From positions 39,209 to 103,208 of the IMG/VR virus record IMGVR_UViG_3300031963_000042: a DNA stretch of 64,000 nucleotides. The stretch is one strand, 5' to 3'. This document shows, in pieces, positions 22,938 through 55,785 of this stretch. Both the position numbers and the translations under genes were made by a program. The number at the start of each line of letters is the position of its first letter. Within the stretch, counting starts at the first letter, position 1. This DNA is from a virus. The notes beneath the pieces were generated by a model. It was not told the DNA's origin, made no database searches, and saw nothing but the letters and a program-made list of their open reading frames with translations.

Positions 22938-22960
22938 CTATAATAAATTGACTTTTCAAT

Positions 22961-38070: not shown

Positions 38071-38788
38071 GCCAAAAAAAGAACTAAACCCCAAAATTTG
38101 GGATAATCAGAAAGGTGATGGCCGCCCCACATTAAAACCAGAAATAAGAGAAAATTTACTGGCAACAGCAAATAGCTTTATAGACTTTCTAGAACTAGAT
38201 TTATTTATCGATGATGCGGTAATAACAGGATCGATATGTAATTATACCTGGTCGGAATATTCTGATATTGATATTCACTTAATAATCGATATATCGCAAT
38301 TCCCTGAAGACATCCAGGACTTATATAAAAAAATTTTTTCACTTAAAAGGCTATTGTTTAATAAAGAATATAACATAAAAGTAAAAAATCATGACGTTGA
38401 AGTTTACGCTCAAGAAAAAGCTGAAAAGCATGAGAGTCCTGCGATATTTTCTTTAGTTAAAGATGAGTGGGTTAAATTTCCTAAAAAGGAGCCACTAAAT
38501 GTGAATACCAAAGAAGTACTCGAAAAGGCAAATAATCTTATGAAATATATCGACACAATCTTGAGTAATTACGAAGAAGATGATTTAGATACCATAAAAA
38601 AAATAACGGGAAAAGTTAAAGAAAAATTATCTAAATATAGAAAATCAGGTTTATCAACAAAAGGCGAACTTTCATTAGAAAATTTGGTATATAAAATATT
38701 GAGACGTAAAGGTTATCTTGATAAATTATATGATTTTGATAAAAAAATTGCAGGAAAAAGATTTACTGTAGAGCAACATTCTTGGTAA
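38045..38788 (+). CDS. Nucleotidyltransferase-fold protein
   Basis: 247 aa from the ATG at 38045. V-I-T-G-S-I-C-N-Y-T-W-S-E-Y-S-D-I-D-I-H matches the G-S-x(8-10)-D-x-D metal site of minimal nucleotidyltransferases. The C-terminal ~100 residues are a charged helical domain. Such proteins are common in large myophages. Possible AMP/UMP transfer to protein or RNA; substrate unknown. Confidence 0.7.
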   Translation: MEKIIQSFEPKKELNPKIWDNQKGDGRPTLKPEIRENLLATANSFIDFLELDLFIDDAVITGSICNYTWSEYSDIDIHLIIDISQFPEDIQDLYKKIFSLKRLLFNKEYNIKVKNHDVEVYAQEKAEKHESPAIFSLVKDEWVKFPKKEPLNVNTKEVLEKANNLMKYIDTILSNYEEDDLDTIKKITGKVKEKLSKYRKSGLSTKGELSLENLVYKILRRKGYLDKLYDFDKKIAGKRFTVEQHSW

Positions 38789-38829
38789 TATTACAACATT
38801 CAATATATTTATATATAAATATTATAAAA

Positions 38830-39081
38830 ATGGCAGCAAATAACGTAAAAGTTGGAGATAAATTTGAGATTAATTTTACTGGAGCATCATCTTTGCAAGG
38901 TATAAGATATGAAGTTTATCACGTTACAGAAAAAACTAATTATATTCCTGTTTCAGACGTATTGGTTTTTTTAAAATTAATTAGTAAAGATGGCTTTAAT
39001 AAAGGTGCTAAACTTAATGATATAGTTCCTTTAGAACATTTAGACATTTTTTATAAACCAGTTACTACACGTAGTGCATAA
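38830..39081 (+). CDS. Small virion-type protein (83 aa)
   Basis: Start chosen at the ATG at 38830 after a TATATTTATATATAAATAT element; the upstream in-frame start would overlap it. Small beta-rich protein (VGDKFEINFTG...), possibly an SH3-like barrel. Start of the head-gene run. Confidence 0.5.
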   Translation: MAANNVKVGDKFEINFTGASSLQGIRYEVYHVTEKTNYIPVSDVLVFLKLISKDGFNKGAKLNDIVPLEHLDIFYKPVTTRSA

Positions 39082-39102
39082 TAATTTTAAATAAATTAAA
39101 AA

Positions 39103-39276
39103 ATGCCAACAACATACTCAGCAGGAACATACGATGCACAAATTTGTGAAGTATGTGACACAACAACAGAATTTAGAACAGATACCCCGCACCCATCATA
39201 TACAAATGAAAAGGGGGATGTTGTTATTCAAACAACTATGGTTACAGCCGGAGGATTTAACGGCCTAAATAATTAA
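39103..39276 (+). CDS. Small head-module protein (57 aa)
   Basis: MPTTYSAGTYDAQICEVCDT... with a CEVC pair; ends NGLNN. Spaced 22 nt and 17 nt from its neighbours, so within the operon. Unknown function. Confidence 0.5.
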   Translation: MPTTYSAGTYDAQICEVCDTTTEFRTDTPHPSYTNEKGDVVIQTTMVTAGGFNGLNN

Positions 39277-39293
39277 AATATAAATAAAAAATA

Positions 39294-40727
39294 ATGGCAG
39301 ATTTAAGACCACTAGGTAGCGAAAAATTACAAGGCGTCGATAAGTTAAAAAGAATTATCGAAATTGCTACATATAACGATAAAAGAGTAGCTCCTGTAAA
39401 TGAAAATAAAAATAGCGATTATAGTATTCGTTTAGCTGACGGTAATACTTACCATATTGTTAAAGAAAGAAATGGTTATATTATTAAACATAATATAACT
39501 GAATCTGTTATTGGGTATATCGAACCAATAGAGGAAAGAAAATATTATGAGTCTTATTCGAAAGCATTGAATAGATTAAATATTATTGCTAAAGAGTTAA
39601 ACTCTCTTTATGGAAACAATGAAGGCACTAGCTTGTTTTATGAGCAAAAAAGATACACTCTAAAAACACCTAAACCTAAAATGCCTATGGATGATGTTGA
39701 AAATGTTCCTCTTCCGGCAGATCCTGGTATGGATGCTCAAGCACCACCACCGCCTCCACCTGATATGGGTGGTATGGATCAGTCTGGTATGGGAGCAGGT
39801 GCTCCTCCACCACCACCTCCACCTATGGGGGGTGACGCAAGTGGTGCACCAGAAGCGGTTAAAATTCCTACCCCATCTGACGATGAATTCGGAGGGTATG
39901 ATAACGAAGAAGATTTTGATTTTGGAGGCGAAGGTTCTGCCGATGAATTTGATTTTGGAGGCGAAGATGAGGGAGAAGAAGGTTATGGTAACGTTACTTT
40001 CAAAACAATAGAAAAACTAACCGGTAAACTAAGCCAAAAATTAAGATCATATGGTGACGATAATGAAATGACATCTAAAGATATTAAGTATGTCGTTAAT
40101 TCGATATTATCTGCTGTTGATTTGTCGATATTAGATGAAGAAGACCTTGATGATATTATGTCAAAGTTTGATATGGAACCTGAAGGTGAGTTTGATTCAG
40201 ACGAATTTGGTGGTTATGAAGATGAAGAATCTGAGCCAAATGAATTTGATTTTGAAGATCAAAGTTATGATGGTGGTTATGGTGAACCTATGGGTGATAT
40301 GCCACCACCACCCCCACCACCCCCACCTCCAGGTGGTTCTATGCCGCCTAGTTTAGGTGAATCAACTTGGGGTGATTTTGCGGATGATGTTATTAAAAAC
40401 ACGGCGTTAAAATATATGAATAAAAAAGCCATAAATAACGAGAGTAAATATTTAACAGATAATTTAGTAGAGAATACATTGTCAAGTTATTTCATGGAAA
40501 GTGTTGATGAGAGGAGATACAATAAAAAAGTTTTACAAGACCGTTATTCATCAGTATTAAAAGAAATAAATAAATTTTCTGAAAATGATTTACAGCGTGA
40601 ATCTGCAACAAAATTTGCGTTTAGAAATAGTGATGCCAAATTAATAGGAAAATCAAATAAAAATAATTTGATTTTTGAACTTAATGGATCGCAATATAAG
40701 ATAACACCAAAAGGTAGTGTTTTATGA
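39294..40727 (+). CDS. Proline-rich acidic virion protein
   Basis: 477 aa. N-terminal ~120 residues resemble an alpha/beta domain. The middle is low complexity: runs of Pro (PPPPPP), Gly/Met and D-E-F-G-G/D-F-D-F-G-G acidic repeats. The C-terminal ~100 residues are helical. Composition resembles a head scaffold or internal structural protein. Ends with an ATGA overlap to the next gene. Confidence 0.5.
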   Translation: MADLRPLGSEKLQGVDKLKRIIEIATYNDKRVAPVNENKNSDYSIRLADGNTYHIVKERNGYIIKHNITESVIGYIEPIEERKYYESYSKALNRLNIIAKELNSLYGNNEGTSLFYEQKRYTLKTPKPKMPMDDVENVPLPADPGMDAQAPPPPPPDMGGMDQSGMGAGAPPPPPPPMGGDASGAPEAVKIPTPSDDEFGGYDNEEDFDFGGEGSADEFDFGGEDEGEEGYGNVTFKTIEKLTGKLSQKLRSYGDDNEMTSKDIKYVVNSILSAVDLSILDEEDLDDIMSKFDMEPEGEFDSDEFGGYEDEESEPNEFDFEDQSYDGGYGEPMGDMPPPPPPPPPPGGSMPPSLGESTWGDFADDVIKNTALKYMNKKAINNESKYLTDNLVENTLSSYFMESVDERRYNKKVLQDRYSSVLKEINKFSENDLQRESATKFAFRNSDAKLIGKSNKNNLIFELNGSQYKITPKGSVL

Positions 40728-41137
40728 GTTTATTGATTTTTGTTAATGGGTTAGGAACAAATTATAAAGGTGACAATATCTATGAGTTTATTTTTTCTGA
40801 CACAATAGAAGATATTTGGGATGATTCTTGGGATCATAAACCATCGAATGGATATCCAAAACCTCCAGATATTGATTACATATCCAGTGTTGCAGTATTA
40901 AAAAATTTTGACATAGAATTAGAATTAATACAGAACTCAGATTTTTTTAGTATGTCAGATAGTATTGATGGTGTGATTGCTTTAGCTTGGGAAAAGGATA
41001 ATGAAACCATTGATTTTAATAAAAAAACTAGACTTGTTTTTAGATATGGAGATACCTTTGAACAAGTTAGCGATAAACTCTACGAAAGAGATATAATTCT
41101 TGAATTAGAAAATAAATTACAACATGAAAACAAATAG
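40724..41137 (+). CDS. Uncharacterised head-module protein (137 aa)
   Basis: Starts MSLLIFVNGLGTNYKG and has D-I-W-D-D-S-W and G-V-I-A-L-A-W-E. Coupled to both neighbours by overlaps. Probably structural or assembly-related by location; no motif known to me. Confidence 0.5.
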   Translation: MSLLIFVNGLGTNYKGDNIYEFIFSDTIEDIWDDSWDHKPSNGYPKPPDIDYISSVAVLKNFDIELELIQNSDFFSMSDSIDGVIALAWEKDNETIDFNKKTRLVFRYGDTFEQVSDKLYERDIILELENKLQHENK

Positions 41138-42050
41138 GTATAGAAATTTGATTAATTTTGGGATCAGCCCAAAAACCCTAATGTCTCTTAGCGAATCGGA
41201 AATTAGAGCATTACATTCGTCTTTAATTGAAGCCTCAACTCAGGATCAAAGAATAAGACAAACCACATATACACCATCAGAAGTTACTGGATTAAAGAAC
41301 AAAAATCAGGGTCTAAATGTTAATGGTGAGGTATCCTTAAAAAGCGATGGAAGTATGGTTGTAAACCAACGACTTGAAAGTGAATTACGTGAAAGTAGGA
41401 AAAAAGGTAAAAACCCCTGGGCTATATGCACGGCAGAAATGGGTAAACAATTTGGAACTCCCGACAGAAGCGAATGGACTAAAGCTCAAAAAGCTAAATA
41501 TGAAAGATGTGTAAAAGGTGCTAAAGTCGCGATTAAAGAAGGTAGAGATCCATCTGAATTTATTCTAGAAAATAGAATAATGGAATTAGTTGACAAAAAG
41601 ATAAATAATGCTAATGATTCTTTATCAAAAGGTGAACTATTAAGAATAATTGAAAGAAAAATGTCTAGAAGCGGGCCAGAAATCGCAGAACCTGAGGTTA
41701 AGCCAAAAACTAAGCCAAAACCAAAAGAAACTCCAGATAAACGTCCAAGCCCATTTAAGCCACCAAAGGAAGCACCAAGACCAAAACCTAAAGGTAAATC
41801 CCGACGTAATTGGAATATGTATGAGACTGAAGAAATTGCTGAACCTGAGGTTAAGCCAAAAACTACACCAAAGCCAAAGCAAAATCCGAAAGAAACTCCA
41901 AGCCCATTTAAACCGCCAAAAAAAGCCCCAAGGCCAAAACCTAAAGGTATGGGTGGAAGAAGAGAGATGAGAGAAAATAAACCATCAAAAGCTAATAATT
42001 TTGGATTACCTAGTTGGTTAACATTTAGATCATTAAACAAATTACGATAA
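41124..42050 (+). CDS. Tagged basic virion-type protein with Pro/Lys repeats
   Basis: 308 aa. L-I-E-A at about residue 36 fits the tag pattern. N-P-W-A-I-C-T-A-E-M-G-K and Y-E-R-C-V-K-G-A-K (residues ~95-130) form a small Cys motif frequent in T4-like phage proteins. The C-terminal third has two copies of an A-E-P-E-V-K-P-K-T unit followed by PKPK...SPFKPPK, highly basic and Pro-rich, suited to DNA binding inside the head. Confidence 0.55.
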   Translation: MKTNRYRNLINFGISPKTLMSLSESEIRALHSSLIEASTQDQRIRQTTYTPSEVTGLKNKNQGLNVNGEVSLKSDGSMVVNQRLESELRESRKKGKNPWAICTAEMGKQFGTPDRSEWTKAQKAKYERCVKGAKVAIKEGRDPSEFILENRIMELVDKKINNANDSLSKGELLRIIERKMSRSGPEIAEPEVKPKTKPKPKETPDKRPSPFKPPKEAPRPKPKGKSRRNWNMYETEEIAEPEVKPKTTPKPKQNPKETPSPFKPPKKAPRPKPKGMGGRREMRENKPSKANNFGLPSWLTFRSLNKLR

Positions 42051-43387
42051 TGAAAAAACATATTAAAGAAGCTATTGACTATAGTGGCTTACGGCCTTCA
42101 GAAAGAATAGATAAAAAATCTGAAACTCGCTTACGTGATAAAAGTTTTCCGTTGGCTAGAAACAAAGCATTCCCTGATGTTAAACAAGGTGAAATTCCAT
42201 CTAATTTTGCTGAATTACTCGCATCAGAATCTTTTAGAAATACGATACAAAAGCTAAAACAGTATACTGGATTAGAAGAAATTGATTCTTCACAAACAAC
42301 TGTGTATACTTTATACAGTATATTTGCCAGATCATATCAAAAAATACTTGAAATTGAAAGTGAGCATAAAGAGTATTTAGAAGATCTAGCTGTAGATATT
42401 ATTCAAAGAGAATTTGGAATTTCCTCTGATGATTTAGAGCTAAGGCCAGAACTTATAACAGGTGATGGTGTAATTCGTGATAAGATCGATTTTGAAGAAA
42501 TAGAAATAAATAATGAAGAGGCTGTAACATATTTTTCTAATTCAAAAAAACATTCTGACGATTTACTTAGAAATGTTAAAGCGATAGACGATGCTACAGA
42601 AAATTTTAATCTGGAGGTAGAAAAACGTAGACTTGTTAATAGTATAATTCACGGAGCAGCTAGAAGAGGTGAAAATTTATTTCATTTGCTTAGAGATGAG
42701 TTAAATGCTATAGACCCTCAGCTATTTAATTTATATTGTATTGTAATGGCATACAATAGATATACGTACTGGATGTATGATATTGATCATTTACAGGACC
42801 TCATGTCTAATGGTGGATCATTTACAGGTATTGTTAAAGTTATTGACAAAGATGATGAAGAAGGCGGTGATGAAGGTGATGAAGGTGATGAAGGTGATGA
42901 AGAATATGCTAATGAAGGTTCTAATATTGCAGTTCATGCTAAAGCAACAATGTTTCCTGTCCTATTGCACGAATTAGTTAAAGGTGTTTACGATGTTTTA
43001 GGTATGTCCAGTTTACCTTTAGGTACTGCCGGAGAATTAGTTGTTAAGAAGGCTGATGATCCTAGAGCAGAAATATGGGATTTAAGACTAGGTGAAGAAA
43101 TTTATAGTAGAATTATGAAAGCGTACCCTAAAGAACTTTTTGATGAACAAAAAAGGTATTTACAACACTTTCTAACTCAAAGATTTTTTTCATTGCCAGC
43201 TAATGAATTTTTAGCTTTAGCTAAATTGCTTTTAAGCGGGTCAGCATCTGGCGCAAATATGTTGCAATCTATGGTTAATGAAATCGTTGAAAATTTAAAA
43301 CAATATGAATCGGCGGAAGATCCTGAAGAAAATAAATTCACGGGGTTTGATTTTGATGATGATGATGACGATTTAAGCTCTATATAA
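42050..43387 (+). CDS. Tagged uncharacterised head-module protein (445 aa)
   Basis: MKKHIKEAIDYSG begins with I-K-E-A (residues 5-8), as in the metallopeptidase tags. Helical and acidic, with a GDEGDEGDEGDEE run (codon repeat at ~42860-42905) and an Asp-rich tail. Starts at a TAATG overlap and ends 3 nt before terminase, so it is translated with the packaging genes. Confidence 0.5.
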   Translation: MKKHIKEAIDYSGLRPSERIDKKSETRLRDKSFPLARNKAFPDVKQGEIPSNFAELLASESFRNTIQKLKQYTGLEEIDSSQTTVYTLYSIFARSYQKILEIESEHKEYLEDLAVDIIQREFGISSDDLELRPELITGDGVIRDKIDFEEIEINNEEAVTYFSNSKKHSDDLLRNVKAIDDATENFNLEVEKRRLVNSIIHGAARRGENLFHLLRDELNAIDPQLFNLYCIVMAYNRYTYWMYDIDHLQDLMSNGGSFTGIVKVIDKDDEEGGDEGDEGDEGDEEYANEGSNIAVHAKATMFPVLLHELVKGVYDVLGMSSLPLGTAGELVVKKADDPRAEIWDLRLGEEIYSRIMKAYPKELFDEQKRYLQHFLTQRFFSLPANEFLALAKLLLSGSASGANMLQSMVNEIVENLKQYESAEDPEENKFTGFDFDDDDDDLSSI

Positions 43388-43390
43388 AAT

Positions 43391-45157
43391 ATGTCAATAA
43401 CTAAAGAACATTACATATTAGAATATACTAAGTGCGTCAAGGATACTCCTTACGCACTTAGTACTTATTTACAGACATATGACAACACTGTTTCTAGATA
43501 TGTTCCATTAGAATTATTTCCTGATCAAATATCATTAATAGAGGATTATGAAAATTACAATGAAAATATTGCATTAAAATATAGACAAGCCGGAGTTTCA
43601 ACTGTTACAGCGGCTTGGGCTTCAAAAAAAATAGTTTTTGCATCAAAGAAAAAACCTGAAAAAATCCTTATTATCGCAAATAAATTAGAGACAGCGATTG
43701 AGATGTCAAATAAGGTTAAATCTTTTATATCTCAATGGCCAAAATGGATGGGTATTGATTTTTCAAAAGATAAGAATTCTCAGAGACATTATAAATTATC
43801 TAATGGATGCGAAGTAAAAGCTGTTGCAACGTCAAAAGACGCATTAAGAGGTTACACTCCAACAGTATTAATATTCGATGAGGCTGCGTATATTGAAGCT
43901 GACGGAGATTTTTGGTCTGCATGTATGGCATCACTTTCAACAGGTGGTAAAGTTATCGTAATCTCGACACCAAACGGTTATGACCCGATATACTATGAAA
44001 TTTATGACCAGGCTCTCAGAAATATGAATAATTTCAAAATATCTGAGATGTTATGGTATAAAGATCCTAGATATACAAAAGATCTTAAATTATTGAAGAT
44101 TGAAAACGCAATTAATTATATCCTAAATAAAGAAGATTATCCTGATATTGAAATAATTGAGTATTCTAGTGTACCTTATAAGGAACGTAATTTTGACGAA
44201 ATTAAAGAAAAAATTTCAGATGGATTTAAACCTTATTCAACATGGTATGAAGGGATGATCCGAAAATTTAAGTTTGACAGGCGTAAAGTTTCTCAAGAAT
44301 TAGAGTGTAACTTCTTAGGTTCTGGTGATAACGTCTTTGAATCTAATTTATTACAATCTGTCAGGCATAATATGATTCGTGAACCCATTAATAAGTTAAT
44401 GGGTAACTCATTATGGTTATGGAAAGAGCCTGTTGCTGGCCATAGATATATTTTAGGATGTGATGTCTCTAGAGGTGACTCAGAAGACTTTACATCAATA
44501 GTTATTATTGATTTTGATGAAAGAGAACAGGTCGCGGAATACATTGGTAAGATACCTCCAGATGTTGCAGCAGAAATTGCCTATAAATGGGGTACTATGT
44601 ATAGTGCTTTTATTGTTGTTGATATAACTGGTGGTATGGGTGTGTCAACATCTAGGAAATTACAAGAAATGGGTTATAGTGGCTTGTATGTTGATGGTAT
44701 TGATTTTAGTAATAAATGGAAATATGACCCTAAAAGTTTGGACAAAATACCTGGAATAAACTTCAATAGCAAACGAGTTCAAATAATATCTGCATTCGAG
44801 GAAGCTATGCGTCATGGATTTAAGGTATACAGCACTCGCCTATTGAATGAAATGAATACATTTATATATATAAATGGGCGACCTGATCATCAAAAAGGCC
44901 ATCACGATGATTTGATCATGGCAATATCTATGGCTATTTTTGTCGGCGAAAATTCTTTTACCAAACTTACTAAAGTTAACGAACAAACTAAAGCTATGAT
45001 TGATTCTTGGCAAGTTACCGACAATCAATCAATATCTAAGAATATTGCCTTTAATCCTGTTTTACCTGTAGGAGCGATAAATCCTATGACCGCGCAAAAC
45101 GAGGCGACAAAAAATGATTATATTAAATACAGTTGGTTATTTGGTGGTAAATATTAA
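43391..45157 (+). CDS. terL: Terminase large subunit (T4 gp17-like)
   Basis: 588 aa, standard length. ATPase: Walker A-type K-Y-R-Q-A-G-V-S-T (residues ~62-70), Walker B V-L-I-F-D-E-A-A with catalytic Glu, and motif III I-S-T-P-N-G. Nuclease: G-C-D-V-S-R-G-D-S (first Asp), V-V-D-I-T-G and H-H-D-D-L-I-M-A, the RNase H-like acidic cluster. Drives DNA into the prohead at the portal and cuts the concatemer. No small subunit recognised nearby. Confidence 0.95.
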   Translation: MSITKEHYILEYTKCVKDTPYALSTYLQTYDNTVSRYVPLELFPDQISLIEDYENYNENIALKYRQAGVSTVTAAWASKKIVFASKKKPEKILIIANKLETAIEMSNKVKSFISQWPKWMGIDFSKDKNSQRHYKLSNGCEVKAVATSKDALRGYTPTVLIFDEAAYIEADGDFWSACMASLSTGGKVIVISTPNGYDPIYYEIYDQALRNMNNFKISEMLWYKDPRYTKDLKLLKIENAINYILNKEDYPDIEIIEYSSVPYKERNFDEIKEKISDGFKPYSTWYEGMIRKFKFDRRKVSQELECNFLGSGDNVFESNLLQSVRHNMIREPINKLMGNSLWLWKEPVAGHRYILGCDVSRGDSEDFTSIVIIDFDEREQVAEYIGKIPPDVAAEIAYKWGTMYSAFIVVDITGGMGVSTSRKLQEMGYSGLYVDGIDFSNKWKYDPKSLDKIPGINFNSKRVQIISAFEEAMRHGFKVYSTRLLNEMNTFIYINGRPDHQKGHHDDLIMAISMAIFVGENSFTKLTKVNEQTKAMIDSWQVTDNQSISKNIAFNPVLPVGAINPMTAQNEATKNDYIKYSWLFGGKY

Positions 45158-45214
45158 TATTTAAAAACCGAAAAATATGATTATATTTATATTTATAATT
45201 ATAACATATTTAAT

Positions 45215-47101
45215 ATGGAAAATAACCAAGAAAAATTAACGATTTGGCAAAGACTATCACAAACATTCGGGCCAAATTCTCTTTTAAACCAGGATTACCC
45301 GGTTTACAAATACGATAAAAAAGAATTATTAAAGACAAAAGATAAAGATGAGTTTGAACTTGCTAAGTTACAAGCTCAGCAGACAATGTATTTGTCTGCA
45401 CAGTGGACAAAGATAGAAAATAACCTATATACACAAGGTGTTTATTTTGAACCAACAAGGTTAGCTTCATATTATGATTATGAGTCAATGGAATACACTC
45501 CAGAAATTTCTGCGGCATTGGATATATATGGTGAAGAATCTACTACAGCGGATCAAAATGGTTTCATATTACAAATATATTCAGAATCTAAACGAATAAA
45601 ATCAGTATTAACTGATTTATTTAATAATGCTTTAGATATTAATACAAATTTAGCAATGTGGACGAGAAACACATGCAAATATGGTGATAATTTTGTCTAC
45701 CTAAAATTAGACCCAAATAAAGGTGTTGTTGGATGTTTTCAATTGCCAAATATTGAAATAGAAAGGATAGAAAAAAGTATGAAGGGTAAAGCTGCGTTGG
45801 ACAACACAGGTACCGAACAGAAAGCTTTAAAATTTAGTTGGAAGAATAGAGACTTAGAGTTTAATACCTGGGAAATTGCGCATTTTAGATTACTTGGTGA
45901 CGATCGTAAATTACCATATGGCACATCTATGTTAGAAAAGGCTAGAAGAATTTGGAAACAGCTATTGTTATCTGAAGATGCTATGTTAATTTATAGAACA
46001 TCAAGAGCACCTGAAAGGAGAGTATTCAAAGTTTTTGTCGGTAACATGGATGATAAAGACGTCGAACCATATGTACAGCGTGTTGCCAATAAGTTTAAAC
46101 GTGATCAAGTTGTTGACAACAAAACAGGTAATGTCGACTTGAGGTTTAATCAAATGGCTGTAGACCAGGATTATTTTATACCTGTTAGAGAGGCAAACGC
46201 TAGTAGTCCAATCGAAACTCTTGCAGGGGCTTCCAATTTATCAGAAATAGCTGATATTGAATACATTCAGAAAAAATTACTTACAGCATTACGTGTACCA
46301 AAAGCTTTCTTAGGATTTGAAGAAGTTGTTGGTGAAGGTAAAAATTTATCTTTGCAAGATATTCGATTCGCAAGAACTATTAATAGAATACAAAAATGTA
46401 TGTTAGCAGAATTAAATAAAATTGCTATCATTCACTTATTTTTATTAGGATTCGAAGATGAATTGACAAATTTTACGTTAGGACTAACTAATCCTTCCAC
46501 ACAAGCTGATTTATTAAAAATCGATGTATGGAAAGAGAAAATTATGCTTTATAAAGATGCTGTAAGCCCTATTGAAGGCATCGCACCAACATCAGTTTCT
46601 TGGGCTAAAAAGCACGTTTTAGGGTTTTCAGATGAAGAGATTAAACTTGATTTGCAGCAACAAAGATTAGAAAAAGCAGTTGGTGCCGAATTAATTAATA
46701 CAGCAACAGTTATCATTAAAACAGGTATATTTGATACTGTTGATAAGTTGTATGGAACAACTAGTGGTACTACGCAAGGTGCTCAAGCTGCACAACCACC
46801 TGGTGGTGATTTAGGTGGATTTGGGGCCGATCTTGGAGGGTTAGGTGGCTTTGGCGGAGGCCTTGGTGGCGAAGTTGGCGGAGCTGCAACTCCTGCTGCA
46901 CCTGCTCCGGCTGGAGGAGAAACTGGTGGCGGCGGCCTTTTTGGCGAATCAGATGAAAGTGAGAAAGACTTATTAAAAATTTTGCTAGAGAATGACGATT
47001 TATTAACCGAAGACACTATCATTGATTTATCTAAAGGAAAAAATTCTTTAGGTGAAATTGAGTCAGCATTAGATAAACTTTTAAATAGCAAATATTTATA
47101 G
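45215..47101 (+). CDS. Portal protein (T4 gp20-like)
   Basis: 628 aa. Follows terminase. Y-D-Y-E-S-M-E-Y-T-P-E-I-S-A-A-L-D and the Y-G-T-S-M-L-E-K-A-R-R-I-W-K region are typical of gp20-type portals; the stem and crown follow. The C-terminus has an unusual Gly/Ala/Pro-rich insert (GGFGADLGGLGGFGGG, ~530-580) before an acidic helix. Dodecameric DNA gate and tail docking site. Confidence 0.9.
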   Translation: MENNQEKLTIWQRLSQTFGPNSLLNQDYPVYKYDKKELLKTKDKDEFELAKLQAQQTMYLSAQWTKIENNLYTQGVYFEPTRLASYYDYESMEYTPEISAALDIYGEESTTADQNGFILQIYSESKRIKSVLTDLFNNALDINTNLAMWTRNTCKYGDNFVYLKLDPNKGVVGCFQLPNIEIERIEKSMKGKAALDNTGTEQKALKFSWKNRDLEFNTWEIAHFRLLGDDRKLPYGTSMLEKARRIWKQLLLSEDAMLIYRTSRAPERRVFKVFVGNMDDKDVEPYVQRVANKFKRDQVVDNKTGNVDLRFNQMAVDQDYFIPVREANASSPIETLAGASNLSEIADIEYIQKKLLTALRVPKAFLGFEEVVGEGKNLSLQDIRFARTINRIQKCMLAELNKIAIIHLFLLGFEDELTNFTLGLTNPSTQADLLKIDVWKEKIMLYKDAVSPIEGIAPTSVSWAKKHVLGFSDEEIKLDLQQQRLEKAVGAELINTATVIIKTGIFDTVDKLYGTTSGTTQGAQAAQPPGGDLGGFGADLGGLGGFGGGLGGEVGGAATPAAPAPAGGETGGGGLFGESDESEKDLLKILLENDDLLTEDTIIDLSKGKNSLGEIESALDKLLNSKYL

Positions 47102-47115
47102 TTAAAAATAAAATT

Positions 47116-47820
47116 ATGAAATTTGGAGCATTAAAATCTAAAATAGAGGAAAAGTTAAATAACTCATATATCAATGAAACTTTTAATAAGGAAATCAAAG
47201 TCTTTAATCATTTAGTTTTGGAGAAAAAAAATGTGGCTAAAGCGTATTATTTATACGACGAGTTGTCTAAGCCAAAAGGATTTGATACTGATTATGCTAA
47301 GGATTATTTGAATGAGTGTATAGAACAGTATGAAAATATTTTCATATCTGAAAGTACTCTAAAAAAAATAGAGAACTGGGTAAAAGATATTAAAGTAAAA
47401 AATAAGTACAATCATATTGATAATGTCTTCAACAAAGATTCAATTTTAATTGAGAGTATTATAGACAGTAAAAAATTAATACTTGAAACCTTGGTATCAA
47501 CTAAAGTTGAGATTAAAAAGTCCGCGTTACCTCATGAATATGTTGTAACAGCAGCTAAAGAATCTTTATCAAAATATCTAGACACATTAAACGAGTCACA
47601 GTTATTAGAGATTAAAAAGTATAAGTCACTTTCAGAGTCAGATTTAAAATCTAGATATGATGTTCTAAGCGAGATGGCTATAGAGAAACTTAATTTGCTA
47701 TATGAAAACAATGATTCTGAAACTAAAGATAAGATCTCTAGCACAATAGAAAGAATTAAGAATGATGAACCAAATGCAATAACTCTATATAAGTTAAAGC
47801 AACTTACTGAGAGTCTTTAA
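47116..47820 (+). CDS. Head assembly protein candidate (234 aa)
   Basis: Helical, Lys/Glu-rich, between portal and protease where T4 has gp67 and gp68. I-E-E and I-N-E sites near residues 10-20 could be protease-processed. Its end overlaps the convergent bS21-like gene by 17 bp. Assignment by position only. Confidence 0.5.
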   Translation: MKFGALKSKIEEKLNNSYINETFNKEIKVFNHLVLEKKNVAKAYYLYDELSKPKGFDTDYAKDYLNECIEQYENIFISESTLKKIENWVKDIKVKNKYNHIDNVFNKDSILIESIIDSKKLILETLVSTKVEIKKSALPHEYVVTAAKESLSKYLDTLNESQLLEIKKYKSLSESDLKSRYDVLSEMAIEKLNLLYENNDSETKDKISSTIERIKNDEPNAITLYKLKQLTESL

Positions 47821-47998
47821 ATTTTTGTTTGTATTTTGCATTTAAAAGATCATTTCGTCTTTTAACCGATTTTTTTACGTATTCTTGCCTTTCTTTAAGT
47901 TTTTCGTTCTGTTTTGAACGAATTACTTTACCTTTTAATATTTTTAAGGCCTTGTCTATGTTTTGGTTTTCAGATATTTTAATTATGAACATATTCAA
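47804..47998 (-). CDS. Ribosomal protein bS21 homologue
   Basis: 64 aa, the normal bS21 length. Pattern I-K-I-S-E-N-Q-N-I-D-K-A-L-K-I-L-K-G-K ... E-Y-V-K-K-S-V-K-R-R ... A-K-Y-K-Q-K-F follows bS21 (N-terminal I-x-[VI]-x-x-x-E-x-[IF]-[DE]-x-A-L-x-x-[FY]-K, then [FY]-x-K-P-S-x-x-[KR]-R), especially the Bacteroidota form. Only minus-strand gene inside the head module. It may replace or compete with host bS21 on the 30S subunit. Confidence 0.8.
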   Translation of the reverse strand: MNMFIIKISENQNIDKALKILKGKVIRSKQNEKLKERQEYVKKSVKRRNDLLNAKYKQKFKDSQ

Positions 47999-48063
47999 TA
48001 TATATTATTATGTTTTATTTTTTTGACAAATGTGTATTTTTTTTTTACATTTTTTAAAAAAGA

Positions 48064-48498
48064 ATGAAGAAAGGTAAAAATATTAAAATAAACGGTTATG
48101 ATAGGTTTAAGATTAATTATGGTACCGTTGATTGTAAAGATTTTAAATCAGTATTTCTTAATATACAGACATGGGCTGAGCCGATAGATCACATTGAAAA
48201 TCCGACAAAAGCAGTAATGTCTTTGACAAAATCAATAAAATATACAATATTCGATAATATTTGTGACGAAACCTTTGAGAATAGATTTATCGTGGATTTA
48301 GACCTCCGATCTAGTGGAATACAATATGGTAAAAAATCGTTTCTAAATTTAGAATGTGTTTTTTTCATTAAGAATGAACAAATAGCTTTTAAATCGAATG
48401 AAATAAAATCAACGATTAAATCAATTGTTGATTCGATTTTATCAAATAATTTCATAAAAAATAAACAATTTAATTTTTACAACAGGAAAATTGAATAG
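48064..48498 (+). CDS. Uncharacterised head-module protein (144 aa)
   Basis: Mixed alpha/beta with a beta-rich middle (E-N-R-F-I-V-D-L-D-L-R-S-S-G) and Lys/Asn-rich ends. Lies between the bS21-like gene and the prohead protease. No motif recognised. Confidence 0.5.
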   Translation: MKKGKNIKINGYDRFKINYGTVDCKDFKSVFLNIQTWAEPIDHIENPTKAVMSLTKSIKYTIFDNICDETFENRFIVDLDLRSSGIQYGKKSFLNLECVFFIKNEQIAFKSNEIKSTIKSIVDSILSNNFIKNKQFNFYNRKIE

Positions 48499-48533
48499 AC
48501 AAACATATTTATATCTATAAATTAGATGTAAAT

Positions 48534-49265
48534 ATGAAAATATTAGGACCGAATGATTTAGGCACTGGTATACTAATAGAATATGACGCAGGGTATGTTT
48601 CACCAACAGAAAGATATAACACCCCATTAATAAGAGAAGGTAAAGATCTTTTAGATTATTCAAAACCTTTTGAATTATATGCGGTATTACAAAAAAGTGA
48701 TACACCGAATAGAAATGGTAGGGTATACCCAGATAAATTATTAAAGCGTGAAATAGATAATTACAAAAAAGCCATTTCTAAGAATACGGCATTATCAGAG
48801 TTAAATCATCCAGAATCATCTCTAGTTGATTTAGATAGAGTTTCACACATGATAACAGATATTTGGTGGGAAGGTCCAAATGTTGTTATGGGCAAACTTC
48901 GACTACTAACAACACCAGGATTTCACGAAAGAGGTATTGTTTCAAGTAAAGCCGATTTAGCTGCAAATTATTTAAGACACGGGGTTACGTTAGGTATCTC
49001 TTCAAGAGGTGTTGGATCGTTAGTTAAAAAAGGTGAACAAAATCATGTACAAGATGATTTCGAATTAATATGCTTTGACTTAGTTTGGTCCCCATCTACG
49101 CCAGGTGCTTACTTATTCCACAATAAAGATGATAGAATGAAATATGAGGAAAACTTGGAAGAAGAAAATAGCATGAGACAAACCAGGTTCAGTGCATCAC
49201 AATCAAGCTCCGGAAATAAATCGCTTGACTTAATGAAAAAATTAGAAGATTATTTATCAAAATAA
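48534..49265 (+). CDS. Prohead protease (T4 gp21-like, S80)
   Basis: 243 aa. N-R-N-G-R-V-Y-P, S-E-L-N-H-P (His) and G-I-S-S-R-G-V-G-S (Ser) are the signature of gp21-type prohead proteases; the catalytic Ser is in S-S-R. In T4 this enzyme sits in the core, matures capsid proteins by cutting after (I/L)-x-E, then digests itself. The cleavage rule fits the major capsid protein here (I-N-E at residues 58-60). ATATTTATAT element at ~48508. Confidence 0.92.
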   Translation: MKILGPNDLGTGILIEYDAGYVSPTERYNTPLIREGKDLLDYSKPFELYAVLQKSDTPNRNGRVYPDKLLKREIDNYKKAISKNTALSELNHPESSLVDLDRVSHMITDIWWEGPNVVMGKLRLLTTPGFHERGIVSSKADLAANYLRHGVTLGISSRGVGSLVKKGEQNHVQDDFELICFDLVWSPSTPGAYLFHNKDDRMKYEENLEEENSMRQTRFSASQSSSGNKSLDLMKKLEDYLSK

Positions 49266-49273
49266 AATACACT

Positions 49274-49483
49274 ATGGACGAAAAATATTTCATCGTAAAA
49301 GTACAACTTGACATCGTTGACGAGAATTCAGGGAAAATTAAAAAAATTAAAGAAGAAAAGCTTGTTAAGGGCTTTTCTGTAACAGATGTTGAGGCAAAAG
49401 TTACAGAAAACTTTAAAGATTTCCCTCAAGATTGGAGAATAACTTCTGTTTCAGAATCTAAAATTGATACGGTTATTAACTAA
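49274..49483 (+). CDS. DUF4494-like small protein
   Basis: 69 aa. Y-F-I-V-K-V-Q-L ... G-K-I-K-K-I-K-E-E-K-L-V-K-G-F-S-V-T-D-V-E-A-K-V-T-E resembles the short beta-beta-alpha DUF4494 proteins of Bacteroidota and their phages. Function unknown. Ends at a double terminator. Confidence 0.5.
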   Translation: MDEKYFIVKVQLDIVDENSGKIKKIKEEKLVKGFSVTDVEAKVTENFKDFPQDWRITSVSESKIDTVIN

Positions 49484-49509
49484 TATAATCTCAAATACAG
49501 TATGATCTA

Positions 49510-49541
49510 AATGGCCAGAATTATTTTCTGGCCATTTTTTT
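49510..49541 (+). terminator. Terminator 1 after protease operon
   Basis: ATGGCCAGAA, loop TTATT, TTCTGGCCATTTTTTTT. Confidence 0.85.
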
Positions 49542-49553
49542 TATTTTTTTTTG

Positions 49554-49583
49554 AAAGGTGACTTACTAAAGTCGCCTTTTTTT
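49554..49583 (+). terminator. Terminator 2 after protease operon
   Basis: AAAGGTGAC, loop TTACTAAA, GTCGCCTTTTTTT; tandem with terminator 1. Confidence 0.75.
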
Positions 49584-49662
49584 ATTTTTCATAATATTTA
49601 TATTGTTGTATACTATTTGCAACAATATAAAAAATAATGTTTGTTTAAAAACATAAATGTAA

Positions 49663-51702
49663 ATGGCACAAAAAGAAAACATTGTAGAAGAAGCACTAGT
49701 CCAAATAAAAGGTTTGGAAGATATAGTGACAGAAAACGCAAAAGGAATACTTTCCGCCACAATGGGGAATGAAATCAGCAGTTTAGTAAAAGAGTCATTA
49801 AAGACTAATACCAAAAAAGCTCGTAGGATTAACGAGGAGGATGAAGATGATCTTGCAAAAGATATTGAAGATGATGAAGATCTTGAAGCACTTGATGCTG
49901 AAATGAATCTTGATGATCTTGAAGATGATGAAATGGATCTTGATGATCTTGAAGATGATGAAATGGATCTTGATGATCTTGAAGATGATGAAATGGATCT
50001 TGATGATCTTGAAGATAACGAAATGGGAACATTTAGTGCAGATGACTTTGAAGATGACATGAGTACTGATATTCGTGTCGACGGTATAACTGGTGATGAT
50101 GATACTGAAATCGACCTAACTCACGCTAGTACTGATGAAATTTTAAAAGTATTTAAAGCAATGAAAGAAACCGATGGCATTATCGTAAAAAAAACAGGTA
50201 ATACCATAGACTTATCAGATTCAGAATCTGATGTCGAATATAAAATAGCCTTAGGAGAATCTATGAAACGTAGAAATTTATTTGAGAATATGTACGAAGA
50301 CGAAGATATTGATATGATGTCAGGATCTAGAGCTTCTGATAATGATTATGATGAGATGCCAGGTTTTGGTGATTCTGATTATGATGAATTTGATGATCGT
50401 CCTTCGGGTAGTAGAGTTGATTTGGATCCAATGGACCAAGAAATAATTGACAATAACTTATTTAGTGAATTAGCTCCAGAAGAAATTAAAGCACACATTG
50501 ATCGTGTAATTGCTGCTGGTCGTCGTAGTGGTATTGACTTTGATGATGAAGGAGAAGAAGAATTTGACATACCATTAGACACCTATGGAAACGATGAAGA
50601 CGATGAAGACGATGATGAATTTGATATGTCATTAGGGTCCGCGTCATCCGATGAAGATGATATGATGGGTTCTGGACGTTTTCGTGGTGAATATTCCGAG
50701 GGATATGATGAAGAAGAAGATGATGACACTTTAAATGAAGAAATTCTTTATGAACTTGAATTAGGAACAGATATGTTCCCGGATACCTTTGACCGTGAAT
50801 CAAACTACGAAAAATTTGGTATCGATGGTGAAAATGTGTCTGATATGGAAAAGTATGATACAGATGATGATGATGATTATATGTCTATACCTGATCTTGA
50901 GGATGATAATGAAGAAGCTGACTTTGAGGAATATGAAAGAAATGGCCTTGATTTTGAAGAAGATATCTATGATGATAGATATGGAGGGGAAGAAGTTTCT
51001 GATTATGATGACATAAAGGAAGCATTTAAACCAAAAGGTATGGGCATGGGTAAACCAAGTAAATTTTCTTATAAAAAACAATCTGGTGGTTTTAAAACAA
51101 AAATGAAACGTGGTACTAGAGGTGTTGGTATGGGTAAGCCTAAATTTGAATTCAAAGAAGAAAATACTGATTTTAAAATGCGACCAAAAAAATCCGAAAC
51201 TACTGAAGCTTCAAGAACTCTTGGTGCTGGAAAATTTTTCGGTAAAAAAGGATTACCAAAACCAAAAGCAGCTCCTAGACATTTAAGAACAGAAAGTGTT
51301 GAAAATGAGCTTATTCTTTTAAGAGAAAAGAATGAAGAGTATAGGAACGCTTTAAATATGTTTAGAGAAAAGTTAAATGAAGTCGCTGTATTCAATTCTA
51401 ATTTAGCGTATGCGACAAGATTGTTTACTGAACATTCAACAACTAAACAGGAAAAAATAAATATCTTAAGAAGATTTGATGGTGTTGAATCACTAAAAGA
51501 GTCTAAGAATTTATACAAATCAATAAAAAACGAACTTTCAAATAAAAATTCAGGCGGAGTTGTTACTGAATCAATTCAAAATAAAATAGATAAAACTCAA
51601 TATTCTGGGTCTGCATCTAATTTGATTGAATCAAAAACATACGAAAATCCTCAGTTTTTAAGAATGAAAGATCTAATGACTAAAGTTAATAACGTCATAT
51701 AA
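49663..51702 (+). CDS. Prohead scaffold/core protein (T4 gp22-like position)
   Basis: 679 aa, much longer than T4 gp22 (269 aa). Helical N-terminus with I-V-E-E-A, then ~400 residues dominated by Asp/Glu, including tandem M-D-L-D-D-L-E-D-D-E repeats, a basic G-M-G-K-P segment pair (~450-520), and a C-terminal coiled coil (L-R-E-K-N-E-E-Y-R-N-A-L ... R-L-F-T-E-H) typical of T4-type core proteins. Lies directly before the capsid gene. Many I/L-x-E sites, as expected for a core that is digested. Confidence 0.75.
   Translation: MAQKENIVEEALVQIKGLEDIVTENAKGILSATMGNEISSLVKESLKTNTKKARRINEEDEDDLAKDIEDDEDLEALDAEMNLDDLEDDEMDLDDLEDDEMDLDDLEDDEMDLDDLEDNEMGTFSADDFEDDMSTDIRVDGITGDDDTEIDLTHASTDEILKVFKAMKETDGIIVKKTGNTIDLSDSESDVEYKIALGESMKRRNLFENMYEDEDIDMMSGSRASDNDYDEMPGFGDSDYDEFDDRPSGSRVDLDPMDQEIIDNNLFSELAPEEIKAHIDRVIAAGRRSGIDFDDEGEEEFDIPLDTYGNDEDDEDDDEFDMSLGSASSDEDDMMGSGRFRGEYSEGYDEEEDDDTLNEEILYELELGTDMFPDTFDRESNYEKFGIDGENVSDMEKYDTDDDDDYMSIPDLEDDNEEADFEEYERNGLDFEEDIYDDRYGGEEVSDYDDIKEAFKPKGMGMGKPSKFSYKKQSGGFKTKMKRGTRGVGMGKPKFEFKEENTDFKMRPKKSETTEASRTLGAGKFFGKKGLPKPKAAPRHLRTESVENELILLREKNEEYRNALNMFREKLNEVAVFNSNLAYATRLFTEHSTTKQEKINILRRFDGVESLKESKNLYKSIKNELSNKNSGGVVTESIQNKIDKTQYSGSASNLIESKTYENPQFLRMKDLMTKVNNVI
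49906..50020 (+). repeat. 30-bp coding tandem repeat in scaffold gene
   Basis: GATCTTGATGATCTTGAAGATGATGAAATG repeats nearly perfectly three to four times, encoding the M-D-L-D-D-L-E-D-D-E units. Confidence 0.85.
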
Positions 51703-51739
51703 TTTAAAAAATAAACTAAACCTAAAAAAAAAATAAAAC

Positions 51740-53593
51740 ATGGGTGCATTATTAGAAAGCGGTCTTGTTGGTAACATAGGATTAAAACATTTAAAAGTTA
51801 TCAAAGAGGACACAATTAACAAATGGGATCGTCTAGGGTTCTTAGAAGGTCTTAGAGGTCACATGAAAGAAAACGTTGCTCAATTATATGAAAACCAAGC
51901 GTCTTTCTTGATAAACGAAGCGTCATCTACAGATTCTTCAGGTTCTTTTGAAACTGTTGTTTTCCCGATAGTTAGAAGAGTTTTCTCTAAATTATTAGCA
52001 AACGACATTGTTTCGGTTCAAGCTATGAATCTACCTATCGGTAAGTTATTCTACTTTGTGCCGAGAATTCAAGGTTATTCTGGAGCAACCGTTGATGGTA
52101 ATATTCCTGGTGGATTCTCCGATTCTGGTTCGCACTATGCTCCAGTTGGATCTCCTGGTAACTACCCAGGTTCACCTGGTGCTGGATATCCTAACGATGC
52201 AAATGCTTACACTAAAAACTTATATGATTTATTCTATGAGGGTGCTGAGCCAGCATTAAATCCTGCTGGATTATTTGATTACTCAAAAGGTCGTTTCTTA
52301 TTTGTAACAGCTAACACACAAACTGTTGCGTGGAATAATGGTGCTTTAATTACATCTGCATACACTAATGGTGAATTCAGAAAGATATTATTAGGTATGT
52401 CTGGTTTCACGTCAACAGGTGACGGTAAGTTGATTGGCCCTGATGGTCAAGAAATGGATACAGAATCATTCTTATCGGACTTAAAACTTTATACTACAAA
52501 TTCAACTGTAGCAACGGAATTAGGAACATCAACATATGCTCCATTATTATTCAGAGTCGTTACTCAGAAATATGGTAAGGGTATGGTTGAGTATGGCTCA
52601 AACACAACAGCAGCATTTAATAGGTCAACAACAGGTGGTAATGGTGGTACATTCTATGACATTTGCAGTGCAACTGGCGTAATTTACTTAGAAATTGATA
52701 CACAAGTCCCTGTTTGCGTTTCATGCGGTCAATCAACACCTGATGGTTATTCTGGTGCAACAATAACAACAAATGCTTGGAGTGGAACAGGTGCTAATGC
52801 TCCTATCAAAGCTGTTTGGAAGCGTTACGAAGAATTAGAATTTGAAGATAAAATTGGTGAAGTTTCTTTTGATCTTGAGTCAGTAACTGTATCTGTTACA
52901 GAAAGAAAACTAAGAGCACAATGGTCTCCAGAATTAGCTCAAGACGTAGCCGCATTCCACAATATTGATGCTGAGGCTGAGTTAACAGCATTGTTATCTG
53001 AGCAAATCGCAGCAGAGATTGACCGTGAAATCTTACGTGACTTACGTAAAGGTGCTGCATGGACATTACGTTGGGATTACAATGGATGGAGAAGACTTGC
53101 AAATACAACATCTTATACGCAAAAAGATTGGAACCAAACGTTGATTACTGCTATAAACCAAATTTCTGCCCAAATCCACAAATCTACATTGAGAGGTGGT
53201 GCTAACTGGATTGTTGTTTCATCTGAAATTTCAGCAATTTTTGATGACTTAGAATACTTCCACGTATCAAATGCATCTCCAGATCAGGATCAGTACAACA
53301 TGGGTATTGAAAGAGTTGGTTCATTAGCTGGTCGTTACCAAGTTTATCGTGACCCTTACTTCCCACCTAATACAGTATTAATGGGACACAAAGGTACATC
53401 ATTGTTAGATACTGGTTACATCTACGCACCATATGTTCCATTACAATTAACACCAACAATGTATAATCCATTTAACTTTACGCCAATCAAAGGTATCATG
53501 ACTAGATACGCTAAGAAAATGGTTAACAATAGGTTCTATGGTAGAATTGTTGTTGATGGTGTTAGAACATTTGACTTACAAGAATTAAGATAA
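51740..53593 (+). CDS. Major capsid protein (T4 gp23-like)
   Basis: 617 aa. N-terminal propeptide of 60 residues ends in F-L-I-N-E, followed by A-S-S-T-D-S-S-G-S-F: a gp21-type (I-x-E) cleavage site close to that of T4 gp23 (after residue 65). F-P-I-V-R-R-V-F ... D-I-V-S-V-Q-A-M-N-L-P-I-G and the HK97-fold C-terminus (L-T-P-T-M-Y-N-P-F-N-F-T-P, R-Y-A-K-K-M-V-N-N-R-F-Y-G) are gp23 hallmarks. Codon use is less A/T-biased than the rest, as expected for high expression. Confidence 0.95.
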   Translation: MGALLESGLVGNIGLKHLKVIKEDTINKWDRLGFLEGLRGHMKENVAQLYENQASFLINEASSTDSSGSFETVVFPIVRRVFSKLLANDIVSVQAMNLPIGKLFYFVPRIQGYSGATVDGNIPGGFSDSGSHYAPVGSPGNYPGSPGAGYPNDANAYTKNLYDLFYEGAEPALNPAGLFDYSKGRFLFVTANTQTVAWNNGALITSAYTNGEFRKILLGMSGFTSTGDGKLIGPDGQEMDTESFLSDLKLYTTNSTVATELGTSTYAPLLFRVVTQKYGKGMVEYGSNTTAAFNRSTTGGNGGTFYDICSATGVIYLEIDTQVPVCVSCGQSTPDGYSGATITTNAWSGTGANAPIKAVWKRYEELEFEDKIGEVSFDLESVTVSVTERKLRAQWSPELAQDVAAFHNIDAEAELTALLSEQIAAEIDREILRDLRKGAAWTLRWDYNGWRRLANTTSYTQKDWNQTLITAINQISAQIHKSTLRGGANWIVVSSEISAIFDDLEYFHVSNASPDQDQYNMGIERVGSLAGRYQVYRDPYFPPNTVLMGHKGTSLLDTGYIYAPYVPLQLTPTMYNPFNFTPIKGIMTRYAKKMVNNRFYGRIVVDGVRTFDLQELR

Positions 53594-53617
53594 TCCAAAT
53601 AAGAATATTATTTCAAA

Positions 53618-53646
53618 TAAAGGGAGCGATTAGTCGCTCCCTTTCT
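53618..53646. terminator. Bidirectional terminator
   Basis: AAAGGGAGCGA, loop TTAG, TCGCTCCCTTT between the capsid gene and the convergent mgsA-like gene. Confidence 0.85.
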
Positions 53647-54016
53647 TATTTAATAACGAGTCAAAAACCAGCTCTGCTGTACTAGAATTTGTCGCTAGAG
53701 GAACGTCATGAACGTTACAGATTCTTAATAGCATGTTAACGTCAACTTGGTGCGGATGGACATCCAATGGGTCAACAAAAAAGATTACACAATCAATTTC
53801 TTTATTAGCAATTTTAGCAGCAATTTGAGCATCACCACCAATTGGGCCGCTTAAAACAGTTTTAACGTTATTTAGTCCTGCATTTTTTAAATATTTACCA
53901 GTTGTACCTGTTGCAAATATTTGTATATCATTACTAGAAAAGTAGCTTAATCTTTTAAGGATAAAAGATACCATATCAGGTTTTTTATTATCGTGTGATA
54001 TTAGGGCTATATTCAT
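53630..54016 (-). CDS. mgsA: Methylglyoxal synthase
   Basis: 128 aa, near full family length (about 150). I-A-L-I-S-H-D-N-K-K, A-T-G-T-T-G (phosphate binding), S-G-P-I-G-G-D-A-Q-I-A, D-P-L-D-V-H-P-H-Q-V-D-V and L-L-R-I-C-N-V-H-D-V-P-L-A-T-N ... T-A are diagnostic. Converts dihydroxyacetone phosphate to methylglyoxal and phosphate in the cytoplasm. Sits between the capsid gene and small virion-type genes on the opposite strand. Could free phosphate or change host carbon flow. Confidence 0.93.
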   Translation of the reverse strand: MNIALISHDNKKPDMVSFILKRLSYFSSNDIQIFATGTTGKYLKNAGLNNVKTVLSGPIGGDAQIAAKIANKEIDCVIFFVDPLDVHPHQVDVNMLLRICNVHDVPLATNSSTAELVFDSLLNKKGSD

Positions 54017-54252: not shown

Positions 54253-54804
54253 ATGGAAAATAGAATTATTAGTCAAATAGAAGAAGCTACAAATTCACCT
54301 TTAGGTGGATCTTACACAAGTCCATTAAAAAATAAAATTAGAAAATGGAAAGATTATAGTCTAAAACCATTTTTAATTGATGTGTCTGATTCCACAGACC
54401 CAGAAGAATATGTTGATGATTTAGATGAAAAAGAAGTAGTTAAAGAAGATCTTGGAGTTTGGTTTGGCACAAAGAAAAAACCAAAAGGCAGTTCTCAACC
54501 TAAAGGGCCTTGGGTTAATATATGTAGGAAAGATAAAAATGGGAAACACCCCCCATGTGGTAGAAAAGAGGCTGACGATTCCGCATACCCCAAATGTAGA
54601 GCTGCCGGTGTTGCTGGCAAGATGACAGACTCTCAAAAAAAATCGGCTTGCCAACAAAAGAGACAAGCCGAAAAAACTCATAATAAAAGTGGTACGGGAA
54701 ACAAACCTAAAATGGTAAAATATGTACCTAAAAAGGATAAAAAATTAAACGAAATTATTAGTAGAGTTTTGGAAGAATATGTTAATAACGGTACTTCTTT
54801 CTAA
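54253..54804 (+). CDS. Tagged DUF5872-like basic protein
   Basis: 183 aa from the ATG at 54253; the longer in-frame version overlaps the divergent gene. N-terminus MENRIISQIEEATNSP with I-E-E-A (residues 8-11). C-terminal half: G-P-W-V-N-I-C-R-K-D-K-N-G-K-H-P-P-C-G-R, Y-P-K-C-R, S-A-C-Q-Q-K-R, a Cys-rich, strongly basic module like DUF5872 of large viruses. Likely DNA-associated virion protein. Confidence 0.6.
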   Translation: MENRIISQIEEATNSPLGGSYTSPLKNKIRKWKDYSLKPFLIDVSDSTDPEEYVDDLDEKEVVKEDLGVWFGTKKKPKGSSQPKGPWVNICRKDKNGKHPPCGRKEADDSAYPKCRAAGVAGKMTDSQKKSACQQKRQAEKTHNKSGTGNKPKMVKYVPKKDKKLNEIISRVLEEYVNNGTSF

Positions 54805-55309
54805 ATGCGGATGGTTTCATAATGTTTGAATTGTCCCATATACCTATTTTTATTCTTCTAGCTCTTAAATATGCTTTTTTGTACTTAGGATTAATGTCTT
54901 TGCGTCCATCAGGTACGTACCAACCATACCCATTTTTTAACATATATTCGGCGACATCTACACTATCTAAATAAACCGCAGCTACATGTCTATCATATAC
55001 GTCTCGATATAAAGTATCTACTGTTACTATTTTATTTTTTAAATAGTTTCTCATGTAATCGGCAACCATTCTACCATCAGCTTGATCTCTGGTTACATAA
55101 TTACTCCTAACTTCGGGGGCATCTACTAGATTAAGCCTGATCCAAATCTTAGTATTTGTTGTGTCGCCTATGTAAGCTATTTTATATGAGTCACCATCAT
55201 GAACAGCGTATACTTTAGCAAAAGGTAATTGTGTGTAACTAATTGTTGTAAAAAACAACATAACAAGTGTTAAAAAATTTTTTAATTTCTTCATTTCTTT
55301 TTTTTTCAT
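54782..55309 (-). CDS. Secreted thermonuclease (SNase-like)
   Basis: 175 aa. Signal peptide (LTLVMLFFTTISYTQ, preceded by Lys). SNase fold with V-H-D-G-D-S-Y-K-I, I-R-L-N-L-V-D-A-P-E-V (catalytic Arg and metal Asp) and D-R-H-V-A-A-V-Y, the second Arg region. Calcium-dependent DNA/RNA nuclease, here exported to the periplasm or medium. ATATTTATG lies ~20 nt upstream on the minus strand. Could destroy incoming or released DNA. Confidence 0.88.
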   Translation of the reverse strand: MKKKEMKKLKNFLTLVMLFFTTISYTQLPFAKVYAVHDGDSYKIAYIGDTTNTKIWIRLNLVDAPEVRSNYVTRDQADGRMVADYMRNYLKNKIVTVDTLYRDVYDRHVAAVYLDSVDVAEYMLKNGYGWYVPDGRKDINPKYKKAYLRARRIKIGIWDNSNIMKPSAFRKKYRY

Positions 55310-55356: not shown

Positions 55357-55785
55357 ATGACTAAAAATGTACAAAAAGGTGATGGTGTCCGATTTAGCTA
55401 TACGATGTGGGATTTAGATGGTAAACAAATTTGGGAAAGTGAATTCCCTATGTATTCTGAAATAGGATCAAACGAGTTATTACCAATAGTTGAGAACTCC
55501 TTAATCGGAATGCATATAGGTGAAAGCAAACGAATTGTGGTAAACCCTGAAGATGGTTTTGGTGCTAGGGATGAAAATTTAATTATCGATATTGATAAAT
55601 CATCAATTAATGGTGAAATAAATGTCGGAAATTACGTGACAACTAGGATTAAAAATCGTATAGTTACTGCGGAAGTTTTATCCATGACTGACGACAAAGT
55701 TAAATTAGATTTGAATAACCCTTTGGCTGGTAAAGGATTTATCTTTGAAGTTGTAATTGTTGATATTAAATTAATTGAAAGTTAA
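55357..55785 (+). CDS. SlyD-like FKBP peptidyl-prolyl isomerase
   Basis: 142 aa. Starts V-Q-K-G-D-G-V-R-F-S-Y-T ... D-G-K-Q-I-W-E-S; L-P-I-V-E-N-S-L-I-G-M-H-I-G-E-S-K-R-I-V-V-N-P-E-D-G-F-G is the SlyD/FKBP signature, followed by an insert-in-flap region and the closing L-D-L-N-N-P-L-A-G-K-G-F-I-F-E-V. No His-rich tail or signal peptide, so cytoplasmic. Prolyl isomerase and holdase. Confidence 0.9.
   Translation: MTKNVQKGDGVRFSYTMWDLDGKQIWESEFPMYSEIGSNELLPIVENSLIGMHIGESKRIVVNPEDGFGARDENLIIDIDKSSINGEINVGNYVTTRIKNRIVTAEVLSMTDDKVKLDLNNPLAGKGFIFEVVIVDIKLIES

Follow-up and report, generated by a model that had tools for sequence, protein, structure and literature searches.

A phage bS21 gene antisense to the head genes: a Bacteroidota-type ribosomal protein that may sustain Shine-Dalgarno-less translation

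Introduction

Why would a phage carry a gene for ribosomal protein bS21, and why on the strand opposite its head genes? The question is raised by a small gene in a 64,000-nucleotide stretch of viral DNA (here called the window; positions 39,209 to 103,208 of IMG/VR record IMGVR_UViG_3300031963_000042). Chen et al. (2022; PMC9723584) described 47 genomes of Bacteroidetes-infecting myophages whose bS21 is a reverse-strand gene inside the region encoding terminase (TerL), portal, protease, and major capsid protein (MCP); 14 IMG/VR relatives were also covered. In those phages, bS21 sits between two hypothetical families and keeps residue 54 aromatic. It is transcribed alongside the late genes, it does not share one operon with the head genes, and its transcript level is similar to that of an opposite-strand neighbor. 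Neither "promoter" nor "autoregul" appears in the main text of that paper. McNutt et al. (2023; PMC9976891), who also discuss phage bS21, reported that bS21-free ribosomes of Flavobacterium johnsoniae initiate better on rpsU, which has an extended Shine-Dalgarno (SD) sequence and is autoregulated through it, and worse on SD-less mRNAs. Mizuno et al. (2019; PMC6375957) found that the bS21 of pelagiphage HTVC008M enters Escherichia coli ribosomes and cuts in vitro translation to about 5%.

Results and Discussion

Identity and start of the bS21 gene

The first-pass annotation of this DNA had proposed a bS21 homologue at 47804-47998, and its family is confirmed by Pfam (PF01165, E 1.3e-9, 38.1 bits; cut-off 27), NCBIfam (TIGR00030, 32.8 bits; cut-off 28.95), and PHROGs (PHROG 21469, "ribosomal protein S21"), as well as by the best solved-structure match, F. 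johnsoniae bS21 (7jil chain z, E 2e-6). Assignment to another family had been named as an outcome that would overturn this identity; both profile models instead score above cut-off. The place of the gene, with its stop at 47804, is also as first described, but its start is not: the TTG at 47998 is in frame and lies upstream of an ATG start common to relatives, and we place the start at that ATG (47992), as indicated by homology and by a conserved M-[LIF]-I-[IV] beginning. The AlphaFold model has two helices (residues 12-37 and 41-61; mean pLDDT, 88), and the protein is thus predicted to be a basic, two-helix protein like others of its family. All 13 Foldseek matches to this model are S21-family chains in ribosomes; each is weak (best E, 0.8) and none is significant alone, because bS21 is an extended helical hairpin. 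A chance or artefactual ORF is ruled out by the family score, by synteny (the gene recurs in place in >100 related loci), and by a dN/dS of about 0.1 (median, 0.09 over 100 pairs), a value indicating that selection on phage bS21 is purifying.

Setting within the head module

The gene order is of the T4 type: terminase, portal, a 234-amino-acid protein, bS21, a 144-amino-acid protein, protease, a DUF4494 protein, a 679-amino-acid acidic protein, and capsid (Table 1). As the first-pass annotation had stated for 38-53 kb, bS21 is the only minus-strand gene; this holds among 15 gene calls from 38,000 to 53,600. The window therefore has the layout of Chen et al., with antisense bS21 between TerL/portal and protease/MCP and two hypothetical neighbors. 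The position "against the grain" of the head module is real, but it is not new: the antisense arrangement and its reading were already published in 2022 (PMC9723584).

Table 1. Features of the bS21 locus and its surroundings (window coordinates)
Feature	Position	Strand	Remarks
Terminase large subunit	43391..45157	+	PF03237, phrog_2
T4-type portal protein	45215..47101	+	PF07230, E 4e-77
-1 gene, 234 aa	47116..47820	+	Hypothetical protein; convergent with bS21, whose 3' end overlaps it by 17 bases
bS21 gene, 62 aa	47804..47992	minus	Pfam PF01165, TIGR00030, and PDB matches; homologous ATG starts in relatives
Tyr54 codon (F. johnsoniae numbering)	47831..47833	minus	Stacks on A1534 of the 16S tail (role: PMC9723584, PMC9976891)
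Divergent intergenic region, bS21/+1 gene	47993..48063		bS21 leader duplex energy -0.7 kcal/mol, no SD
TTTTGAC element (GTCAAAA on the bS21 strand)	48021..48027	+	Probable -33/-35 box of the +1 gene
+1 gene, 144 aa	48064..48498	+	Hypothetical protein; conserved neighbor with or without bS21
Prohead protease	48534..49265	+	PF03420, E 2e-25
T4-type major capsid protein	51740..53593	+	PF07068, E 7e-72

Besides this layout, which is common to their clades a to e, the window phage shares with the phages of Chen et al. (PMC9723584) a tyrosine or other aromatic residue at position 54, tRNAs, a Clp-type ATPase, an FKBP, low G+C content, and inferred Bacteroidetes hosts. Among cultured phages, Flavobacterium phage vB_FspM_immuto has a related portal protein (38%) and a related capsid protein (41%); tblastn detected no bS21 in it.

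bS21 is an optional insertion

Searches of IMG/VR with the protease and portal yielded 160 loci, 120 of which hold both genes. bS21 lies between the two in 104 of the 120, always antisense, and is absent from the slot in 16; in the case of one such relative, L033 (296 kb), no bS21 was found anywhere in the record. The gap between the flanking genes is about 275 nt where bS21 is present and 66-73 nt or 151 nt in most loci where it is not. On a tree of protease plus portal, the presence label changes five times, and at least four of these changes are forced by well-supported branches. Thus, bS21 is an optional cassette, an insertion of about 200 bp whose absence is seen at no fewer than four places in the phage tree, and since several relatives live without it, it is not essential to these phages. 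The +1 gene, in contrast, persists wherever the slot is visible in a locus without bS21; the co-transcribed neighbor reported by Chen et al., which may be a different gene, is missing from their two outgroups.

The slot accepts different cargo, since in some bS21-less relatives (L024, L033, and L038) the space between the homologues of the 234- and 144-amino-acid genes contains an unrelated plus-strand ORF starting MKIIITENQYKLIKEN, either once or as two copies.

The shared upstream region

The first-pass annotation had suggested separate regulation of bS21. This is plausible: the gene diverges from the +1 gene across 71 bp that contain a conserved TTTTGAC, and the bS21 genes of Chen et al. 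lie outside the head-gene operon. On the bS21 strand, GTCAAA occurs in 59 of 79 distinct upstream regions, compared to 1% of shuffles. We rejected, as the principal interpretation, that this box is bS21's own promoter, since relatives without bS21 still have it or a variant: TTTGAC or TTTGATATATA is kept upstream of the +1 gene in 13 of 17 such loci. The likeliest role of GTCAAA is therefore as a -33/-35 box for the +1 gene, to which bS21 lies back to back. Such a layout would fit the similar transcript levels of bS21 and an opposite-strand neighbor (PMC9723584), should that neighbor be the +1 gene. That TTTTGAC is a general late promoter accounting for the antisense gene was likewise rejected, as the copy at 48021 is the only one that the window has ≤120 nt ahead of a plus-strand gene.

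In 29 of the 59 relatives with GTCAAA (3% expected), a -7-like box comes after it and, in 23 of these 29, ends 5-8 nt before the ATG, raising the possibility of a leaderless bS21 message; the window copy lacks the strict GTCAAA plus -7-like pattern.

Translation signals in phage and host

Across 75 gene starts in the window, duplex energies with the 16S tail average -0.94, compared to -0.82 for shuffles, and 5% of genes reach -6 or below (2% of shuffles): there is no SD signal beyond shuffles, in agreement with the earlier statement that most genes of this phage lack SD sites. A dominates at -3 and around -13. SD-less, A-rich starts are the broad pattern reported for Bacteroidota, and we detected no distinguishing signal in the start regions.

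The leaders of bS21 itself differ sharply between host and phage. In 53 distinct Flavobacterium-type loci, host rpsU leaders have a median of -19.7 kcal/mol with the 16S tail; 84 distinct phage bS21 leaders have a median of -0.4 kcal/mol, equal to shuffled leaders, and the window copy is similar (Table 1). The extended SD of Bacteroidota rpsU autoregulation was found neither in the window bS21 leader nor in the phage copies. In a sample of hosts from the whole phylum, values lay between -19.5 and +0.8, and 7 of 14 genes were at -13.7 or stronger; these values cover only the 14 genes with an ATG near the aligned start, and the host set as a whole leans to Flavobacterium. With neither the window's gene starts nor the bS21 leader showing an SD, the phage uses SD-less initiation throughout, and its bS21 gene is without the sequence needed for host autoregulation.

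Comparison with host and other phage bS21 proteins

A tree places the 82 distinct phage bS21 proteins and the 59 from Bacteroidota in separate groups with full support (100/99); its 64 columns give little resolution within groups, and its host sample leans to Flavobacterium. Column 54 is aromatic in all 82 phage proteins (Y in 71, H in 8, and F in 3) and is Tyr in the window. The retained Tyr54 and the F. johnsoniae structure match both uphold the Bacteroidota link proposed earlier. The window protein resembles F. johnsoniae bS21 (7JIL; PMC9976891) in length, two-helix fold, and residues A15, K20, K22, S42, R46, and A52 in addition to Tyr54; it differs in being phage-borne, in its identity of only about 40%, in substitutions in helix 1, and in its leader lacking an extended SD. 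Five helix-1 sites conserved in hosts (R21, F23, D24, G27, and T28 in F. johnsoniae) are consistently changed in phages, including F23 to V/I, D24 to I, G27 to R/K, and T28 to Q. Such differences agree with the N-terminal divergence noted by Chen et al. (PMC9723584) and suggest that phage bS21 may have a function not shared by the host protein. The HTVC008M protein (PMC6375957), for which E. coli ribosome entry was shown, is likewise phage encoded, but it is of proteobacterial type, with a proteobacterial host and from another phage lineage.

Proposed role and its alternatives

We consider it likely that this Bacteroidota-type phage bS21 joins host ribosomes late in infection, keeps the anti-SD tail hidden, and thereby sustains SD-less initiation, outside the feedback that governs the host gene. 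The protein would be made late, from the divergent promoter region next to the prohead genes, and would take the bS21 place on the 30S platform, replacing or replenishing host bS21. Its C-terminal helix and Tyr54 would hold the 3' tail of 16S rRNA in a pocket, as in host bS21, and this sequestration would keep ribosomes competent for the phage's SD-less messages. Since the phage bS21 message is without the host extended SD, it should not be limited by host feedback, escaping the loop in which bS21-free ribosomes translate rpsU. We infer late timing by analogy with close relatives, whose bS21 is transcribed late (PMC9723584), and incorporation by analogy with pelagiphage bS21 in E. coli (PMC6375957); continued tail sequestration, feedback escape, and a benefit to phage translation are suggested by the conserved residue 54 and the SD-less starts and leader. 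In a stronger version, which we put forward tentatively and think doubtful, the SD-less message not only takes bS21 out of the host's SD-based feedback but keeps all 30S subunits SD-blind and blocks the bS21-free recovery route; if this were true, phages would overrule a known specialised-ribosome circuit of the cell.

That a phage bS21 could change which messages are translated, as the first-pass annotation had it, is a published hypothesis, but the change does not follow from the sequence. A simple SD-based switch is unlikely, since neither phage nor host messages have an SD and the residue stacking on the anti-SD is kept. Selection could instead operate through the divergent N-terminal helix near the mRNA path, so that ribosomes carrying phage bS21 prefer phage over host messages. 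The consistent changes at host-conserved helix-1 positions and the late expression would suit such a hijack, which both Chen et al. (PMC9723584) and Mizuno et al. (PMC6375957) proposed; however, we detected nothing in the SD-less, A-rich phage starts by which to tell messages apart, and we regard this explanation as unlikely. It is quite improbable, in our view, that phage bS21 serves to displace the host protein and slow host translation. The loss of activity with pelagiphage bS21 makes a poisoning role conceivable, but that pair was heterologous, phage late proteins need the same ribosomes, and relatives transcribe bS21 while structural proteins are being made (PMC9723584). We give hardly any credence to a nonribosomal RNA-binding or virion protein reusing the bS21 fold: the gene does lie in the head module, Chen et al. 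raised packaging of bS21 into virions as a possibility (PMC9723584), and extraribosomal roles have been reported for bS21 (PMC12054373), but no such role would require the aromatic anti-SD-contacting residue retained in every phage copy.

Viruses that carry a ribosomal protein are already known, and the window adds a phage lineage to their number. Relative to Chen et al. and McNutt et al., our additions are modest: the contrast in extended SD, the optional nature of the ∼200-bp insertion, and the purifying dN/dS. The contrast between host and phage leaders, together with close relatives with and without bS21, makes function testable, whether that function is to escape feedback and maintain ribosomes or to select messages.

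Other features of the window

The window encodes 21 tRNA genes (13292-22938), most of them clustered at 14.9-19.0 kb, a number in keeping with the 2022 description of bS21 phages as tRNA-rich. A Clp/Hsp100-type double AAA ATPase of 683 amino acids with ClpB_D2-small and a UVR motif (35184-37235, minus strand) adjoins the head module. Within that module, a short plus-strand protein conserved after the protease (49274-49483) matches the C-terminal half of DUF4494 (PF14902, E 6e-9). Just past the capsid gene, on the opposite strand, lies a stand-alone MGS-like domain protein (53630-54016; PF02142, E 1e-17), and further on are an SNase-family nuclease (54782-55309, minus strand) and an FKBP-type prolyl isomerase (55357-55785, plus strand).
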